Source of the DNA: Microlunatus kandeliicorticis
GTDB taxonomy: Bacteria > Actinomycetota > Actinomycetes > Propionibacteriales > Propionibacteriaceae
Assembly: GCF_014137855.1 (NCBI RefSeq)
Contig: NZ_JACGWT010000003.1
Span: forward strand, 496,001 to 560,000
Reading direction: 5' to 3'
DNA: 64,000 nt
Positions 13,170 through 57,386 of the stretch are shown here, piece by piece. Under the pieces are notes generated by a model. That model was given only the letters and a program-made list of their open reading frames with translations. It ran no database searches and was not told the origin of the DNA. A program made the translations under genes and the position numbers. Each line of letters starts with the position of its first letter. Position 1 is the stretch's first letter.

Positions 13170-14816
13170 GTGAACGCAGGTCCTCTGGTCGTCCAGTCCG
13201 ACCGCAGTCTGCTGCTCGAGGTCGACCATCCCGACGCCCCCGCCTGCCGGATCGCCATCGCCCCGTTCGCCGAGCTGGAGCGGGCCCCCGAGCACATCCA
13301 CACCTACCGGCTGACGCCGCTCGGGCTGTGGAACGCCCGCGCCGCCGGGCACGACGCCGAGCAGGTGGTCGACGTGCTGCTCACCTACAGCCGCTACCCG
13401 GTGCCGCCGTCGCTGCTGGTCGACGTCGCCGACACCATGGACCGCTACGGCCGCTTGCGGATCGAGAAGCACCCGACCCACGGTCTGGTGCTGGTCAGCA
13501 CCGACCGCGCGGTGCTCACCGAGGTGCTCAAGAGCGCGCGGGTCAAAGGGCTGCTGGGCAACCGGATCGACGACGACACCGTGGTGGTGCACCCGTCGGA
13601 GCGCGGCCACCTCAAACAGGTCCTGCTCAAGCTGGGCTGGCCCGCCGAGGACCTCGCCGGCTACGTCGACGGCGAGGCGCACGCGATCGACCTGACCGAG
13701 GACGGCTGGTCGCTGCGGCCGTACCAGAAGGAGGCGGCCGAGTCGTTCTGGCACGGTGGGTCCGGCGTGGTCGTGCTGCCCTGCGGCGCGGGCAAGACGA
13801 TCGTCGGCGCGGCCGCCATGGCCGCGGCCCGCGCGACGACGTTGATCCTGGTCACCAACACCGTCTCGGCCCGGCAGTGGCGCGACGAGCTGATCAAGCG
13901 GACCACGCTGACCGCCGACGAGATCGGCGAGTACTCCGGGGCCAAGAAGGAGATCCGCCCGGTCACCATCGCCACCTACCAGGTGATCACCACCAAGCGC
14001 GGCGGGGTGCACCCGCACCTCGAGCTCTTCGACGCCCGCGACTGGGGTCTGATCCTCTACGACGAGGTGCACCTGCTGCCGGCCCCGGTGTTCCGGATGA
14101 CCGCCGACCTGCAGGCCCGGCGTCGGCTCGGGCTGACCGCGACGCTGGTCCGCGAGGACGGCCGCGAGGGCGACGTGTTCAGTCTGATCGGCCCGAAGCG
14201 CTACGACGCGCCGTGGAAGGACATCGAGCAGCAGGGCTACATCGCCCCGGCCGACTGCGTCGAGGTGCGGGTCACGCTGACCGACCACGAGCGGATGACG
14301 TACGCGGTGGCCGAGGAGGACGTCAAGTACCGGCTGGCCGCGACGGCGGACACCAAGACCGACGTGGTCGTCGACCTGGTGGCCAAGCACCGCGGGGTGC
14401 CCACCCTGGTGATCGGCCAGTACGTCGACCAGCTCGACGAGCTGGCCGAACGGCTCGGCGCGCCGTTGATCAAGGGCGAGACCAGCGTCCGGCAGCGGGA
14501 GAAGCTCTACGAGCAGTTCCGGTCGGGCGAGATTGACCTGCTGGTGGTGAGCAAGGTCGCCAACTTCTCGGTCGACCTGCCCACCGCGCAGGTGGCGATC
14601 CAGGTCTCCGGCGCCTTCGGCTCGCGGCAGGAGGAGGCCCAGCGGCTCGGCCGGCTGCTCCGCCCCAAGCAGGACCACACCACCGCCCGCTTCTACGCCG
14701 TGGTCTCGCGCGACACCGTCGACGCCGAGTTCGCCCAGCACCGGCAGCGTTTCCTCGCCGAGCAGGGCTACGGCTACCGGATCATGGACGCCGAGGACGC
14801 GATCGCCGCCGAGTGA
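13170..14816 (+). CDS. DNA repair helicase XPB (ERCC3-like)
   Basis: A 548-residue superfamily 2 helicase, close to the 540-550 residues of actinobacterial XPB. An N-terminal damage-recognition-like domain (about 1-170) precedes helicase domain 1 with Walker A PCGAGKT (about 204-210), the DEVH box (about 297-300), and the XPB-type RED motif in VREDGREGD (about 330). Motif VI reads 'QRLGRLLRPKQ'. It should unwind DNA 3'-5' in an ATP-dependent manner, probably in nucleotide excision repair. The GTG at 13170 follows an AAGGAG site by 5 nt. It lies downstream of its usual partner gene with a small zinc-finger gene between. Confidence 0.93.
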   Translation: MNAGPLVVQSDRSLLLEVDHPDAPACRIAIAPFAELERAPEHIHTYRLTPLGLWNARAAGHDAEQVVDVLLTYSRYPVPPSLLVDVADTMDRYGRLRIEKHPTHGLVLVSTDRAVLTEVLKSARVKGLLGNRIDDDTVVVHPSERGHLKQVLLKLGWPAEDLAGYVDGEAHAIDLTEDGWSLRPYQKEAAESFWHGGSGVVVLPCGAGKTIVGAAAMAAARATTLILVTNTVSARQWRDELIKRTTLTADEIGEYSGAKKEIRPVTIATYQVITTKRGGVHPHLELFDARDWGLILYDEVHLLPAPVFRMTADLQARRRLGLTATLVREDGREGDVFSLIGPKRYDAPWKDIEQQGYIAPADCVEVRVTLTDHERMTYAVAEEDVKYRLAATADTKTDVVVDLVAKHRGVPTLVIGQYVDQLDELAERLGAPLIKGETSVRQREKLYEQFRSGEIDLLVVSKVANFSVDLPTAQVAIQVSGAFGSRQEEAQRLGRLLRPKQDHTTARFYAVVSRDTVDAEFAQHRQRFLAEQGYGYRIMDAEDAIAAE

Positions 14817-14832
14817 TCACCTCACCCCGAGT

Positions 14833-15023
14833 GTCCTGAGCCCGTCGAAGGGCAGCAAACGGAACCCGGACACCCAACCCCTGCACGGTGCCCTGAGCCC
14901 GTCGAGGGGCAGCAAACGGAACCCGGACACCCAACCCCTGCACGGTGCCCTGAGCCTGTCGAAGGGCGAGAACGGCGCCTCAGCAGTGAACTCCTGAACG
15001 GTGCCCTGAGCCTGTCGAAGGGC
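14833..15023 (-). repeat. REP array A, four units, left of the GIY-YIG gene
   Basis: Four copies of the palindrome CCCTGAGCCTGTCGAAGGG and variants, all in one orientation, spaced 57, 57 and 56 bp. The first two units carry almost identical spacers (AGCAAACGGAACCCGGACAC and following). The last ends 90 bp before the GIY-YIG start. The array on the other side of that gene has the opposite orientation. Confidence 0.85.
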
Positions 15024-15035
15024 AGCCGACCCGAG

Positions 15036-15062
15036 CTGTGGACAACCGAGCGTCATCCACAG
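15036..15062. promoter_or_regulatory. Inverted repeat with DnaA-box-like halves upstream of the nuclease gene
   Basis: CTGTGGA (15036-15042) is mirrored by TCCACAG (15056-15062). The left half read on the minus strand gives TTGTCCACA (15037-15045), the actinobacterial DnaA-box consensus; the right half reads CATCCACAG. Could be an operator or DnaA-responsive site. Based on symmetry only. Confidence 0.35.
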
Positions 15063-15112
15063 ATGCGGAACACGCCCGACGATCGCACCGTCCACCGCTC
15101 CACTCTCGAAGC

Positions 15113-15394
15113 GTGCCGTACACCTACATCCTCGAGTGCGCAGACGGGTCGCTCTACGTCGGGAGCACCCGGAACCTCGATCAGCGGGTCAACGAGCACG
15201 CGCTGGGCACAGTCGCCGGGCACACGGCGACCAGACGGCCGGTGAAGCTCGTCTGGTACCAGGAGTCCGAGCGGATCAGTGACGCCTACTGGCTCGAGCA
15301 CCAGCTGAAGCGATGGCGACGGGAGAAGAAGCTCGCGCTGATCGAGGGGCGGGTTCATGATCTCCCTGCGCTTGCGCGTGGTGCGCGGAGATGA
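15113..15394 (+). CDS. GIY-YIG nuclease family protein
   Basis: A 93-residue single-domain protein of the UPF0213/YhbQ-like GIY-YIG group. It has YTYILECADGSLYVGST (about 3-19), where Tyr-Ile-Leu and Tyr-Val-Gly occupy the GIY and YIG positions, then the catalytic Arg of NLDQRVNEH (about 25) and the metal-binding Glu of YWLEHQLKRW (about 69). The family cleaves single- or double-stranded DNA and is related to homing and repair nucleases. The GTG at 15113 puts the motif at the N-terminus as in relatives. A REP palindrome begins 2 nt after its stop codon, and REP arrays in opposite orientation lie on both sides, with no other gene between. Confidence 0.9.
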   Translation: MPYTYILECADGSLYVGSTRNLDQRVNEHALGTVAGHTATRRPVKLVWYQESERISDAYWLEHQLKRWRREKKLALIEGRVHDLPALARGARR

Positions 15395-15396
15395 TG

Positions 15397-15650
15397 GCGC
15401 TTCGACAGGCTCGGGCACCCCTGAAGGGGTTTGCTGCCCGGGTTCCGTTTTCCGCCCTTCGACAGGCTCAGGGCACCTTTCCACCATCCGCCCTTCGACA
15501 GGCTCAGGGCACCTTTCCACCATCCGCCCTTCGCAGGCTCAGGGCACCGTTCTCCCGACCCACACCCGAAGGGCTCAGGGCACCGGTTCCCGGCGCACTG
15601 CCCGTCGACAGGCTCAGGGCACCGTTCACGCCCCTCGACGGGCTCAGGGC
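15397..15650 (+). repeat. REP array B, about seven units, right of the GIY-YIG gene
   Basis: About seven palindromes of the CCCTTCGACAGGCTCAGGG type, mostly in one orientation, opposite to array A. Units near 15460, 15495 and 15530 are separated by near-identical short spacers (ACCTTTCCACCATCC). The first unit starts 2 nt after the nuclease stop codon; the last ends 12 bp before the stop of the GH63-like gene. Some units are degenerate (for example CGAAGGGCTCAGGGC). Confidence 0.85.
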
Positions 15651-15662
15651 GCGGTTCCGGGT

Positions 15663-18308
15663 TCAGGAGACGGGGTCGTCGGCGTGGCGGGTGAGCAGCA
15701 GGTGGGCGACCAGGGCGGTCCAGCCGGTCTGGTGCGAGGCGCCCAGACCGGCGCCGGTGTCGCCGTGGAAGTACTCGGAGAAGGTCGGGTCGGCGTTCCA
15801 GCGGGGGTCGGTGGCGAACCGGGAGCCGGTGTCGGAGGGACGGACCCCGTCGGGGCCGGGGAGGAACAGCCCGGCCAGCCGCCCGGCGAGGTCGTCGGCG
15901 ACGTCGTGCAGCCGGAGCCGACGCCCCGAGCCGGTCGGGTACTCGACGGTGAAGTCGGCCCCGAGCACCTCGTCGTAGCGGCGCAGCGCCTCGACCAGCA
16001 GCACGTTGAGCGGCATCCAGACCGGTCCGCGCCAGTTGGAGTTGCCGCCGAACAGCGCGGTGGTCGACTCCCCCGGTTCGTAGTCCACCCCGGCCGACAC
16101 GCCACCGAGCTCGACCCGGAACGGGTGCTCGCGGTGCCAGGCCGACACCGAGCGGATCCCGTGCGCCGACAGCATCCCGGCCTCGTCGAAGGCCGCGGCC
16201 AGCACCGTCCGCAACCGGTCCGGGTCGACCAGCGCCAGCAGTCGGTGCTCGACGCCGTCGCGCGGGTGCCGCTGCACCGCGCCGGCCAGCTCGGGATGGT
16301 GGTCGGTGAACCAGTCGGCCCGGGCGGTGAAGTCGGGCAGGTCGGCCAACGGCATCTGCTCGAGACTGCTGACCGCAGTGACCGGGATCAGCCCGACCAG
16401 CGACTTCACCCGCAGCGGGACGTCGGTGCCGTCGGTCAGGTGCAGGACGTCGTAGTAGAAGCCGTCCTCGGGGTGCCACAGGCTGGCGTTGTTGGCCGCC
16501 CCGGCGATGGTGAGGAACTGCTCGAAGAACTTGGTCGCCACGTCCTCGTAGCTGCGGTCGCGGCCGCACAACGTGATCGCGATGTCGAGCATGGTCAGCG
16601 CGTAGAACGCCATCCAGGCGGTGGCGTCGGACTGCTCGAGCGTGCCCAGCTCCGGCGGCACCGCCGAGCGGTTCAGCGGGGCGATGTTGTCCAGACCGAG
16701 GAACCCGCCCTCGAAGAGGTTGTTGTCGCCGTGGTCCTTGGTGGCCACCCACCAGGTGAAGTTGATCAAGAGCTTGTGGAACACCCGGGCCAGGAACGCG
16801 GTGTCGCGGCCACCGTCGATCAGGAACACGGTCAGCGCCGCCCAGGCGTGCACCGGCGGGTTGACGTCGGAGAAGTCCCACTCGTACGCCGGCAGCATCC
16901 CGGTCGGGTGCAGGTACCACTCGCGCAGCGCCAGGATCAGCTGGGCCTTGGCCAGCGCCGGGTCGACGTGGGCCAGCGTCACGCAGTGGAACGCCCAGTC
17001 CCAGACCGCGAACCACGGGTACTCCCAGACGTCCGGCATCACGATCACGTCGTGGCAGCTGACCTGGCGCCAGTCACCGTTGCGGACCGCCCCGCGCCGG
17101 GCCGGCGGTCGGGGTTCGGCCGGGTCGCCGTCCAGCCAGGTGGCGACGTCGTAATGGTAGAACTGCTTGCTCCACAGCAGTCCGGACAGCGCGCTGCGGA
17201 CCAGCCGGCCCCGGTCACCGGTGCACCCGGCGCGCTCGGCCAGCTCGGACCAGAAGGCGTCCGCCTCCGCCCGGCGGTCGGTGATCACCTGCGCGAACCC
17301 GTCCCCGAGGTCGACCGCGCCGTGGTCCGACCCCGGGCTCGCCTGCAGCCTGAGCCGGACCGTCCGTCGCTCCCCGGGCCCGACCCGCAACCGGTGGTGC
17401 AGCGCCGCCTTGGTCCCGCTGCGCGACGGGTCCACGGAGTCGGTGCCGTGCAGCACGTGGTCGGCGATGCCGTCCTTCGGGTACCGCGGTCCGTCGGTCG
17501 CCCCGTACAGCCGGGCGGTGTTGGTCTCGTTGGCGCAGAACAGCGGCTCGAACTCGCCGTCGGCGGCCAGCACCAGCCGTCCCGACCGGTCGCTCTCGGC
17601 CACCACCCGGTCACCGGTCCAGCGCAACGACGGCCGCGGTTCCCCCGCGCTGGTCGGGGCGCCCCACGACCACCGGTTGCGGAACCACAGGGTGGGCAGG
17701 ACGTGCAGCTCTGCCGGGTCGGGCCCGGCGTTCTCGACCGTGATCTCCATCAGCAGGTCGTGCGCGGCGGCCTTGGCGTAGGTGACCTCGACCACCCAGT
17801 AGCGGTCGTCGTCGAACACCCCGGTGTCGGCCAGCTCGTACTCGGGGTCGGTCCGCGACCGGGACGCGTTGGTGGCCACCAGGTCGTCGTAGGGGAAGGC
17901 GCGCTGCGGGTAGTGGTAGCGCCAGACGTTCCAGCTGTGCGTCGGGGTGGCGTCGACGTGCCACCAGTACTCCTTGACGTCCTCGCCGTGGTTGCCCTCG
18001 GGTCCACCGAGCCCGAACATCCGCTCCTTGAGGATCGGGTCGGCGCCGTTCCACAGCGCCAGCGCCAGGCACCAGTCCTGCCCGTCGTCACAGAAGCCGG
18101 CCATGCCGTCCTCGTTCCAGCGGTACGCGCGGGAGCGGGCGTGGTCGTGCGGGAAGCTCCGCCAGGCGTCGCCGTCGGCGCTGTAGTCCTCCCGGACGGT
18201 CCCCCAGGCCCGCTCGGCCAGGTAGGGGCCCCAGCCCCGCCAGTCGACGGTCCCGGTGTCGGCCTCGTCCAGTCGCTGCTGTTCCGCACCGCGGCGGTCG
18301 GCGTTCAC
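15663..18308 (-). CDS. MGH1-like glycoside hydrolase (GH63-related glucosidase)
   Basis: An 881-residue protein, the usual length for bacterial proteins annotated as glucosidase of the GH63/MGH1-like type. An N-terminal beta-sandwich-like section begins 'DWRGWGPYLAERAWGTVRED' (about 19-38). An (alpha/alpha)6 barrel covers the second half, with the conserved 'WEYPWFAVWDWAFHCVTLAH' (about 424-443), where the Asp is a likely catalytic acid, then 'GMLPAYEWDFSDVNPPVHAW' and 'NWRGPVWMPLNVLLVEAL' (about 764-781). It probably acts on alpha-glucosides in the cytosol, since no signal peptide is seen. The GTG at 18308 is chosen because family similarity starts about 20 residues later. Confidence 0.87.
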   Translation of the reverse strand: MNADRRGAEQQRLDEADTGTVDWRGWGPYLAERAWGTVREDYSADGDAWRSFPHDHARSRAYRWNEDGMAGFCDDGQDWCLALALWNGADPILKERMFGLGGPEGNHGEDVKEYWWHVDATPTHSWNVWRYHYPQRAFPYDDLVATNASRSRTDPEYELADTGVFDDDRYWVVEVTYAKAAAHDLLMEITVENAGPDPAELHVLPTLWFRNRWSWGAPTSAGEPRPSLRWTGDRVVAESDRSGRLVLAADGEFEPLFCANETNTARLYGATDGPRYPKDGIADHVLHGTDSVDPSRSGTKAALHHRLRVGPGERRTVRLRLQASPGSDHGAVDLGDGFAQVITDRRAEADAFWSELAERAGCTGDRGRLVRSALSGLLWSKQFYHYDVATWLDGDPAEPRPPARRGAVRNGDWRQVSCHDVIVMPDVWEYPWFAVWDWAFHCVTLAHVDPALAKAQLILALREWYLHPTGMLPAYEWDFSDVNPPVHAWAALTVFLIDGGRDTAFLARVFHKLLINFTWWVATKDHGDNNLFEGGFLGLDNIAPLNRSAVPPELGTLEQSDATAWMAFYALTMLDIAITLCGRDRSYEDVATKFFEQFLTIAGAANNASLWHPEDGFYYDVLHLTDGTDVPLRVKSLVGLIPVTAVSSLEQMPLADLPDFTARADWFTDHHPELAGAVQRHPRDGVEHRLLALVDPDRLRTVLAAAFDEAGMLSAHGIRSVSAWHREHPFRVELGGVSAGVDYEPGESTTALFGGNSNWRGPVWMPLNVLLVEALRRYDEVLGADFTVEYPTGSGRRLRLHDVADDLAGRLAGLFLPGPDGVRPSDTGSRFATDPRWNADPTFSEYFHGDTGAGLGASHQTGWTALVAHLLLTRHADDPVS

Positions 18309-34652: not shown

Positions 34653-34704
34653 GCGCCCTTCGACGTGCTCAGGACGGCGCCCTTCGGCAGGCTCAGGACG
34701 GCGC
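34653..34704. repeat. REP pair overlapping the end of the HAD gene
   Basis: Two degenerate type-A palindromes (GCGCCCTTCGACGTGCTCAGG, split here as arms GCGCCC and CAGG, and a second at 34679-34697). The HAD gene's stop codon (34693-34695) and final few residues are encoded by the second REP, showing that the repeat has entered the gene end. Confidence 0.7.
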
Positions 34705-38517: not shown

Positions 38518-38836
38518 CCCTGAGCCTGTCGAAGGGCCTCCGGCGCGAAGGAGCGCGCTTCGACAAGCTCAGCGCACGTGCTCCCACGCGCCCTGACCCC
38601 CTCCCGCGCCCTGAGCCTGTCGAAGGGCCTCTGGTGCGAAGGAGGAGCGCTTCGACAAGCTCAGCGCACGTGCTCCCACGGTGCGCTGAGCCAACCCTCC
38701 CGTGCCCTGAGTTTGTCGAAGGGCCTCTGGTGCGAAGGAACGCGCTTCGACAAGCTCAGCGCACGTGCTCCCCCCGCGCTCTGAGCCCATCCGTTCCCTG
38801 AGCCTGTCGAAGGGGACCCCGACCAGCTCAGCGCAC
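38518..38836. repeat. REP array, alternating type A and B (inverted pairs)
   Basis: Four type-A palindromes (CCCTGAGCCTGTCGAAGGG at about 38518, 38609, 38705, 38796) alternate with type-B palindromes in reverse orientation (GCGCTTCGACAAGCTCAGCGC class), joined by conserved 'CCTCTGGTGCGAAGGA' spacers and 'ACGTGCTCCCAC' tails. Unit spacing is 91, 96 and 91 bp. The array fills the gap between the esterase and GH92 stop codons, which converge on it. Confidence 0.85.
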
Positions 38837-45042: not shown

Positions 45043-45306
45043 GCGCTGAGCCTGCGGAAGCGCAGGAGCCGCGCACCCTCGCTCCAAGCCCTTCGACAGG
45101 CTCAGGGCACCGTTGGACCCGAGCGCTGAGCTTGTCGAAGCGCAGGAGCCGCGCACCCTCGCTCCAAGCCCTTTGACGAGCTCAGGGCACCGTGAGTCCG
45201 TCCCGCACCCGCGCGCTGGGCACCGTGGGTCCGTTGCCCGATCCGTGCGCCGAGCCTGTCGAAGCGCGCGCACCCAATCGCCAGCCCTTCGACAGGCTCA
45301 GGGCGC
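45043..45306. repeat. REP array, alternating type B and A
   Basis: Type-B (GCGCTGAGCTTGTCGAAGCGC class, at about 45043, 45123, 45247) and type-A (about 45090, 45170, 45284) palindromes alternate in opposite orientation. The first two B-A units are tandem copies 80 bp apart with the same spacer 'AGGAGCCGCGCACCCTCGCT'. A third, more divergent B-A pair completes the array. It occupies the gap between the fusion gene and a small membrane protein gene. Confidence 0.85.
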
Positions 45307-47819: not shown

Positions 47820-48024
47820 GCCCTTCGACAGGCTCAGGGCACGTAGTGGAGGCGGCTCAGGGCACGTTGGCACGCCACTCGACAGGCTCAGGACACGTCA
47901 TGGAGACGGCTCAGGGCACGTCGGGCCGCCCTTCGACAGGCTCAGGGCCCGTGGTGGAGGCGGCTCGGGACACGTGGGTGGGGGGCTCAGGGCACGTTGG
48001 TGCGCCCTTCGACAGGCTCAGGGC
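47820..48024. repeat. REP array with partial units
   Basis: Three or four type-A palindromes (47820, 47877, 47929, 48004 region) alternate with half-units that keep only GGCTCAGGGCACGT, spaced about 55-75 bp. The array lies between recQ and the aminotransferase gene and ends 20 bp before the latter's stop codon. Confidence 0.75.
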
Positions 48025-57326: not shown

Positions 57327-57386
57327 GCGCTTCGACGAGCCCAGCGCGCGGAACCCGCCCACCGTGCCCTGAGCCTGTCGAAGGGC
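57327..57386. repeat. REP inverted pair (type B + type A)
   Basis: GCGCTTCGACGAGCCCAGCGC-class type-B palindrome (57327-57347) and an inverted type-A CCCTGAGCCTGTCGAAGGG (57367-57386) make one B-A doublet between the APH-like and ureD genes. Confidence 0.8.

Follow-up and report, generated by a model that had tools for sequence, protein, structure and literature searches.

What keeps the gene for a very small nuclease between two arrays of repetitive extragenic palindromic (REP) sequences that point towards it? The question is raised by a locus of Microlunatus kandeliicorticis within the 64,000-nt stretch of DNA analysed here (the window), in which a GIY-YIG gene (Pfam PF01541, E = 1.9e-18) is the sole recognised gene between an XPB/ERCC3-like helicase and an MGH1/GH63-like glycosidase (Table 1). 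The original prediction described a lone 93-residue GIY-YIG gene between two REP arrays, with four units on the left, about seven in the opposite orientation on the right, and the first of the latter 2 nt past the stop codon. The locus reads accordingly: the gene is complete, four plus-strand units lie on its left, five minus-strand units at up to three mismatches and two damaged ones recognised by eye lie on its right, and 2-3 nt separate the stop codon from the first right unit. The inverted match between the two boxes is not confined to the 19-mer that was used to find the units but runs over 81 nt, at 83% complementarity. At up to three mismatches, the 19-mer occurs 28 times in the window against 0.04 occurrences expected by chance, and the window genome (G000; 4.30 Mb) holds 597 matches at up to two mismatches as well as 600 exact REP cores, CTGAGCNTGTCGAAG, with none of either in the reversed controls. 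One dispersed array of the window alternates units of two arm classes, CCCT and CGCT, which are the arm classes that go with this genome's two nuclease paralogs.

Table 1. Positions of the nuclease gene, its neighbours and REP sequences in the window.
Feature	Position	Strand	Remarks
XPB/ERCC3-like helicase	13170-14816	+	
Left REP array, 4 units	14834-15022	+	Towards gene; 14834-14852, 14891-14909, 14948-14966, 15004-15022
Left half of 81-nt inverted repeat, longer than REP core	14887-14967	+	83% complementary to 15397-15477
Inverted pair of TCCACA motifs upstream of nuclease start	15037-15061		15037-15045 (-), 15053-15061 (+)
93-aa single-domain GIY-YIG nuclease gene, GTG start, TGA stop	15113-15394	+	Pfam, alignment, AlphaFold, fold search
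Right half of 81-nt inverted repeat	15397-15477	-	83% complementary to 14887-14967
Right REP array, about 7 units	15398-15649	-	Towards gene; 15398 (degenerate), 15455, 15491, ~15527-15544 (damaged, 1-nt deletion), ~15565-15580 (damaged), 15601, 15631
MGH1/GH63-like glycosidase	ORF ends at 15663	-	
Dispersed REPs, same family	34656-34698	-	Two diverged units
Dispersed REP array	38518-38814	both	CCCT-arm (+) and CGCT-arm (-) units alternating
Dispersed REP array	45089-45303		Both arm classes
Dispersed REP array	47821-48023	-	
Single dispersed REP	57367-57385	+	

The gene encodes a complete nuclease domain. The catalytic set of the GIY-YIG superfamily consists of two tyrosines, an arginine and a glutamate, all of which are present as Y5, Y15, R25 and E62, and in a 32-member alignment across phyla Y5, Y15, H29 and E62 are invariant and R25 is at least 90% conserved. 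The AlphaFold model forms one compact domain (pLDDT 91.6), its nearest solved folds being UPF0213 proteins (E = 8.5e-6 and 7.8e-4), followed weakly by Slx1 (E = 7e-3). A search of the defence systems of PADLOC gave no match and one of NCBIfam gave nothing above cut-off, with grpIintron_endo matching weakly below it; in plasmid records, relatives are annotated as 'GIY-YIG nuclease family protein', 'excinuclease ABC subunit C' or 'hypothetical protein', or not at all. We infer that the nuclease cuts REP structures. Upstream of its start stands an inverted pair of TCCACA motifs, which we take to be DnaA-box-like. Of 80 nuclease loci, 42 have this motif in the 150 bp upstream and 4 have it downstream, compared with 64 of 1,327 random windows; it often lies near -60 on the plus strand or -47 on the minus strand, mainly in actinobacterial loci, and could tie expression of the nuclease to replication.

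The pairing of this nuclease clade with REP palindromes extends well beyond the window. A profile (A1) of 15 proteins from the order Propionibacteriales confirmed at least 552 relatives in species genomes, and the best 80 of these span about ten phyla, with members in Actinomycetota, Alpha- and Betaproteobacteria, Bacteroidota, Ignavibacteria-type bacteria, Chloroflexota, Cyanobacteriota, Nitrospirota, Fibrobacterota, Neomarinimicrobiota and Termititenax. The motif searched for beside them (a four-base arm, GAG, up to 60 nt, TCGA and the complementary arm) had been fixed after inspection of loci of the genus and order, and a few of the best 80 duplicate those motif-finding loci (for example, L033 is the G017 locus and L099 is L027). 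It lies within 500 bp of the nuclease in 76 of these best 80 loci, one of which (L097, the same locus as L314) probably matches by chance, and the four misses (L046, L069, L092 and L094) have, by eye, palindromes of the same plan without TCGA. The density of the palindrome is 4.30 per kb near the nuclease and 0.28 per kb beyond 1.5 kb.

Because REPs are intergenic, genes were compared with genes. Palindromes lie within 250 bp on both sides of 57 of 73 nucleases, seven of the 80 loci having been dropped at contig ends, compared with 1 of 270 other ORFs with a length of 150 aa or more; on any side, the counts are 69 of 73 and 33 of 270. General REP richness or an intergenic bias as the cause of boxing is rejected by this control, and both-side palindromes are found at none of 36 other ORFs of the window. 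Among loci of the order, 25 of 26 are boxed on both sides (2 of 28 dropped at contig ends, and several also present in A1 or the motif finding). The idea that all GIY-YIG loci are alike is also rejected: among distant GIY-YIG loci of the phylum search, some of which lie in long frames and are not all small genes, only 1 of 25 has palindromes on both sides, and such palindromes are absent from all five Bacillota loci of the plasmid collection. The nearest units point towards the gene (plus on the left, minus on the right) in 40 of 62 two-sided loci, the remainder being plus-plus (11), minus-plus (6) and minus-minus (5).

Within Propionibacteriales, the nuclease and REPs also occur together at the level of whole genomes. 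The clade was found at E <= 1e-28 in 47 of 147 genomes, and genomes were counted as REP-rich, over three REP patterns, if the GGTY pattern reached 8 per Mb or one of the others 3 per Mb. By this measure, 45 of 47 nuclease-positive and 18 of 100 nuclease-negative genomes are REP-rich (Fisher p ~ 1e-20, a statistic that ignores phylogeny), and thresholds of 6, 10 and 15 give 45 of 47 versus 22 of 100, 44 of 47 versus 17 of 100, and 41 of 47 versus 13 of 100. Of the 100 negatives, 46 belong to two families that have neither the gene nor the REPs; in the two families that are mixed, positives and negatives are REP-rich in 12 of 13 versus 10 of 37 and in 33 of 34 versus 8 of 17. Two of the 47 positives are REP-poor by these patterns. 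Some of the 18 REP-rich negatives may hold diverged nucleases missed by the E cut-off; such genomes, Microlunatus G009 among them, imply that REPs can persist or spread without the nuclease. The correlation between nuclease clade and REP family, set beforehand as the test of the original prediction, is strong, as seen in co-occurrence, class matching and both-side boxing.

REP sequences have known partners in the RAYT transposases (PMC3733652 and PMC8266576, as far as the available parts of these papers go), and the prediction that no RAYT accompanies the window locus is borne out. Pfam Y1_Tnp (PF01797), which served as the RAYT test and matches 5 of 14 control genomes, is found in none of 40 genomes, that of the window included. 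Across the order it turns up in 6 of 147 genomes, and G499 is the one among these six that has the nuclease as well. Flanking REPs read by eye have no GTAG foot, and the GAGTAG of the TA class sits inside the hairpin. On the Y1_Tnp searches, a RAYT is rejected as the cause of the REPs in the genus Microlunatus, and the independence of the pairing from RAYT is well supported.

Likewise well supported is the match of REP class to nuclease, which extends to paralogs within the same genome. Flanks were read in 22 of 33 genomes with a single nuclease copy. The four with TA-type flanks (GAGTAG...CGTATCGA), G025, G405, G455 and G470, hold 263, 42, 96 and 86 TA-type REPs, compared with 0-4 in the 18 others, and the five with CCCT short-type flanks (G002, G010, G017, G018 and G499) hold 102-426 copies of CTGAGCYYGTCGAAG, with none of the other 17 exceeding 20. 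Nearest-relative nucleases have a common REP class in 68 of 91 comparisons (shuffled mean 24.8, maximum 45) and a common arm in 49 of 91 (shuffled mean 16.2, maximum 31), numbers that include two identical pairs and to whose sharing host phylogeny also contributes. Paralogs that share a genome are free of this confound, and in 9 of the 14 multi-copy genomes each paralog has a class or arm of its own, including all five copies in G411, all three in G408 and G031, and both in G000, G028, G401, G425, G431 and G513. G490 is mixed, the three copies of G500 (96-98% identical) have one class, and in three genomes (G492, G498 and G437) the second copy lacks a REP of this kind.

One correction to the original prediction is that the partner is a superfamily of palindromes with variable arms and inner stems, and not a single REP 19-mer. 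Among 506 distinct windows of the short class, four arm positions pair in 60-66% of cases as against shuffled means of 34-41%, with pairing at the fifth position (135) not above the shuffled maximum (137). Of 72 cases with paired arms, 34 have GA/GA as the dinucleotides beside the arms, and the next pair of dinucleotides has 3; a de novo tally of inner dinucleotides gives a modest GA/GA excess only, which is weak and contaminated by N runs, so that more weight is given to the gene-by-gene comparison and to arm covariation. Since the arms covary while the non-Watson-Crick GA...GA stays, the conserved non-pair is a plausible recognition feature of the REP. TnpA-REP of E. coli likewise requires a mismatch bulge (PMC8266576, from the available part of that paper).

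A CGTC-type tag stands before many of the REPs that flank proteobacterial nucleases. In the accessible portions of their survey, Di Nocera et al. (2013; PMC3733652) divide REPs into GTAG repeats, accompanied by RAYTs, and CGTC repeats. The latter 'apparently lack a dedicated transposase' and occur mainly in alphaproteobacteria; they carry CGTC, TGTC or CCTC as a tag, and their stems are AT-first and 8-9 bp long, with loops of 4-5 nt and a CCA tail. Palindromes at alphaproteobacterial nucleases are preceded by CCTCA in 21 of 37 cases and CGTCA in 6 of 37, with GCTCA in 6 more, and one of the three tags is found at 11 of 15 Pseudomonadota nuclease loci of the plasmid collection, the background of the CGTC finder being 0.21 per kb. 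TGTCA occurs in 5 of 24 cases in the Bacteroidota/Chlorobi/Neomarinimicrobiota group, and a tag in 1 of 12 in the Beta/Nitrospira group and 0 of 9 in Chloroflexota. Units beside proteobacterial nucleases read, for example, CGTC-ATTCCCGC-GCAG-GCGGGAAT-C(C/T)A and CGTC-ATCCTCGGG-CTTGA-CCCGAGGAT-CCA. The REPs of the window have no CGTC-type tag, their units reading ...GGTGCCCTGAG.

Relatives on mobile replicons are few (39 of 72,556 plasmid and 21 of 50,697 phage records), and plasmid or phage cargo is rejected as the main home of the family, all such matches having less than 60% identity. From 21 of the 39 plasmid records, which were fetched, come the 15 Pseudomonadota loci; palindromes lie within 400 bp in 13 of them (11 CGTC-type, 2 GA-type), on both sides in 11 of the 13, and are absent within that distance at the Sphingomonas paeninsulae and Acidiphilium loci. 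In Planktothrix, TGTC-ATTCTGAG...GAAGAAT stands on both sides of the nuclease and was missed by the palindrome finders used for plasmid loci; on this plasmid (L325) the REP-boxed gene has a gene for an MmeI-type restriction enzyme on one side and a DISARM helicase gene on the other. The best phage match has no such palindrome, and the sole relative on a viral contig (L163) is flanked by GA palindromes. Four relatives (L290, L292, L332 and L333) stand in apparent core operons, of the orders nrdR-GIY-methyltransferase, rnc-GIY-era and tRNA methyltransferase-yazA-rsmI, which suggests domestication.

Among 20 Microlunatus genomes, lone small GIY-YIG genes occur twice in G000, once each in G002, G003, G014, G017 and G018, and in decayed form in G010. 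All eight lie among REPs, mostly with plus units on the left and minus units on the right; the exceptions are two additional minus units on the left in G002 and plus units on the right of the second G000 copy (contig C6), the flanks of which belong to another, CGCT-arm class, GCGCTGAG...CGAAGCGC. Judged by neighbouring genes, the eight occupy six positions. In 17 other species in which the 3' end of XPB was located, the 900 bp downstream of it hold neither a nuclease nor short-class REPs, and no cleaner empty site for the window insertion was found, the downstream neighbours differing in other Microlunatus species. The decayed copy (L023; G010, contig C1, ~4503337) has a stop and a frame shift with REPs still around it, and at the same position G018 is intact. 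Four genomes without the gene are REP-rich (G009, 423 cores; G008, 253; G011, 180; G005, 142).

Short units that carry the ends of the nuclease element may point to movement. Among neighbours within 150 bp of each other, the 90 cores of G014 form 12 plus-minus pairs, 1 minus-plus, 4 plus-plus and 4 minus-minus. The ends of its nuclease element, ACGCTCCCTGAGC...GGCC and GGCC...GCTCAGGGAGCG, are both present on 9 of the 12 plus-minus units, with one end on 2 and neither on 1 (L150), and the inner GTTGGC/GCCAAC also agrees by eye; G014 thus has short units whose inverted ends are also those of a coding element, as in REPINs and MITEs. A composite REP unit, folded as one strand, reaches -45 kcal/mol (z = -10.5). 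For the genus of G275, the search covered 60 genomes, and 30 loci were read over 1.5 kb beside a conserved flank; the nuclease is present in 3 of the 30 (G275, G372 and G363). At the site of the G275 nuclease, G341 has a single REP, two direct copies of which enclose the nuclease in G275, and the other loci have other REP types or none. Over about 200 kb in each genome, REPs are TA-type in G275 (11 of 11) and mostly GA-type in G341 (13 of 16). Orthologous sites in this genus differ in whether a plus-minus unit is present, and one of them has the GA type in G341 where G337 and G376 have the TA type, which suggests overwriting in place. No target-site duplication or clean excision product was recognised at the loci compared. 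The three near-identical copies of G500 (L301-L303) were considered as proof of transposition and rejected, since their flanks are homologous: the REP stretches are 98-100% identical and the flanks 83-93%. The homologous stretches presumably belong to DUF222/HNH (13E12) genes.

The original prediction had given the nuclease the part that a RAYT plays elsewhere. As far as a dedicated partner is concerned this stands, through the correlation and the lack of a RAYT. For mobilisation the support is indirect, and consists of ends common to the nuclease element and the short units in one genome, differing chromosomal positions of the gene in related species, and presence or absence at orthologous sites.

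The reading that we prefer, at a probability of roughly two in three, is that the nuclease is a dedicated partner that would recognise, cut and spread its own REP class. It would recognise the hairpin or cruciform of that class through paired arms around the conserved GA...GA non-pair, with arms and inner stem specific to the class, and would nick or cut a REP exposed at replication in extruded or single-stranded form. Through repair, or through exchange of strands with a further copy, REPs could then be spread, replaced and homogenised. Inverted REP pairs would be the short mobile unit and the REP-nuclease-REP segment the long, self-coding one, in a working that may be likened to that of RAYT and the REPtron with an unrelated enzyme. 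On a wider proposal our opinion is evenly balanced: class-specific GIY-YIG nucleases may constitute a second, RAYT-independent machine that propagates a CGTC/GA superfamily of REPs in many phyla, in which hairpins would be cut and templated repair would insert or overwrite copies in a homing-like manner, with no HUH strand transfer.

GIY-YIG is a classic homing-endonuclease fold, and a free-standing homing endonuclease might copy itself into REP sites while the REPs spread by other means. Such a parasite would suit the G275 nuclease, enclosed by two direct copies of the single REP of G341, and the REP richness of 45 of 47 hosts, but it sits poorly with REP classes that track nuclease classes, with REPs of the TA type only in G275 (11 of 11) when G341, which has no nuclease at that site, is 13 of 16 GA-type, and with a search of the 40 nearest genomes that yielded no RAYT to move the REPs instead; we consider it unlikely. 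Somewhat less probable again is a housekeeping, structure-selective resolvase of the host that trims REP hairpins or cruciforms and lies near REPs by autoregulation or chance. The nearest folds, UPF0213 and Slx1, and the Bacillota relatives (yazA) that stand in an operon without REPs are in keeping with it, yet there is no need for a housekeeping gene to be enclosed by its substrate or to shift its position between related species, and paralogs with different REP classes would be hard to explain.

REPs often act as terminators or insulators downstream of genes. The right array, which begins just past the stop codon, would fit arrays that insulate or terminate a harmful nuclease gene with no relation of enzyme to substrate; this we hold to be improbable, as boxing is near-exclusive to the nuclease (57 of 73 versus 1 of 270) and class matching across paralogs is not predicted by it. 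Scarcely credible is that a RAYT drives the REPs and the nuclease is a coincidental neighbour: RAYTs are the known REP partners according to the accessible parts of PMC3733652 and PMC8266576, but Y1_Tnp is found in 0 of 40 relatives and in 6 of 147 genomes of the order, one of them nuclease-positive, the REPs read lack a GTAG foot, and the pairing recurs in about ten phyla. For this group, the Y1_Tnp searches and the both-side boxing control contradict such a role.

In the open-access literature (5.39 million papers), with most subscription papers and all bioRxiv preprints outside this scope, no report was found that links GIY-YIG to repetitive extragenic palindromic repeats, nor was there one among the matches listed for related subjects; the parts available of open-access papers on CGTC repeats, including PMC12306157, likewise hold no link to a nuclease. 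REP strings of 12 to 15 nt retrieved nothing related by title from open-access papers. Three apparent matches were discarded on the parts of the records that were available, two of GIY-YIG with 'rayt', which was an author name only, and one of GIY-YIG with 'extragenic palindrom', which was unrelated. One gene family adjoins both CGTC-type repeats and their actinobacterial counterparts, and an open question about very common dispersed bacterial repeats becomes testable at the bench, the materials being a short oligonucleotide and a protein of 93 residues. If true, the proposal of a second machine answers what moves the 'orphan' CGTC REPs. If class-specific, the protein would be a nuclease of very small size that reads structure and comes in natural variants of specificity; to our knowledge, it would also be the first dedicated enzyme of a non-RAYT REP system.

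The enzyme shares a minimal fold with UPF0213/COG2827 (1zg2, 1ywl and YazA of B. subtilis; profile E = 6e-21 to 1zg2), from whose YazA-type Bacillota members, as far as they were read here, it differs in having such REPs. Slx1, the closest characterised fold, although weakly matched (E = 0.007), is a branched-DNA nuclease and a much larger protein. With GIY-YIG homing endonucleases of the I-TevI type it has the catalytic domain in common, and the mobility of these through DNA breaks is a precedent; unlike them, it is a 93-aa single domain between two genes, with no intron, intein or separate DNA-binding domain recognised, and its target would be a dispersed family of palindromes. The REPs, in turn, can be set beside the CGTC superfamily as given in the accessible text of PMC3733652. 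Many REPs flanking proteobacterial nucleases have the CGTC, TGTC or CCTC tag, and those of the plasmid collection also have AT- or AC-first stems of 8-9 bp, loops of 4-5 nt and often a CCA tail, so that many would appear to belong to this superfamily. REPs of the window, of Chloroflexota and of most Bacteroidota lack the tag, and the window REPs lack the combination of stem, loop and tail seen in the proteobacterial relatives. In Caulobacter crescentus, a listed CGTC species (PMC3733652), three small COG2827 genes are known, one of which carries an SOS box (PMC1839093, again from partial text), and the text available of PMC3733652 gives no transposase gene associated with CGTC repeats. The closest parallel is the REPtron, in which a RAYT/TnpA-REP tyrosine transposase goes with GTAG REPs and REPINs. 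The enzyme here is a GIY-YIG nuclease and not an HUH/Y1 protein, the REPs have no GTAG foot and the genome has no Y1_Tnp; in both systems, a low-copy gene lies between inverted cognate REPs, REPs are scattered as singles, inverted pairs and tandem arrays, gene and REP are paired by class, and the REPs may outlive the gene.
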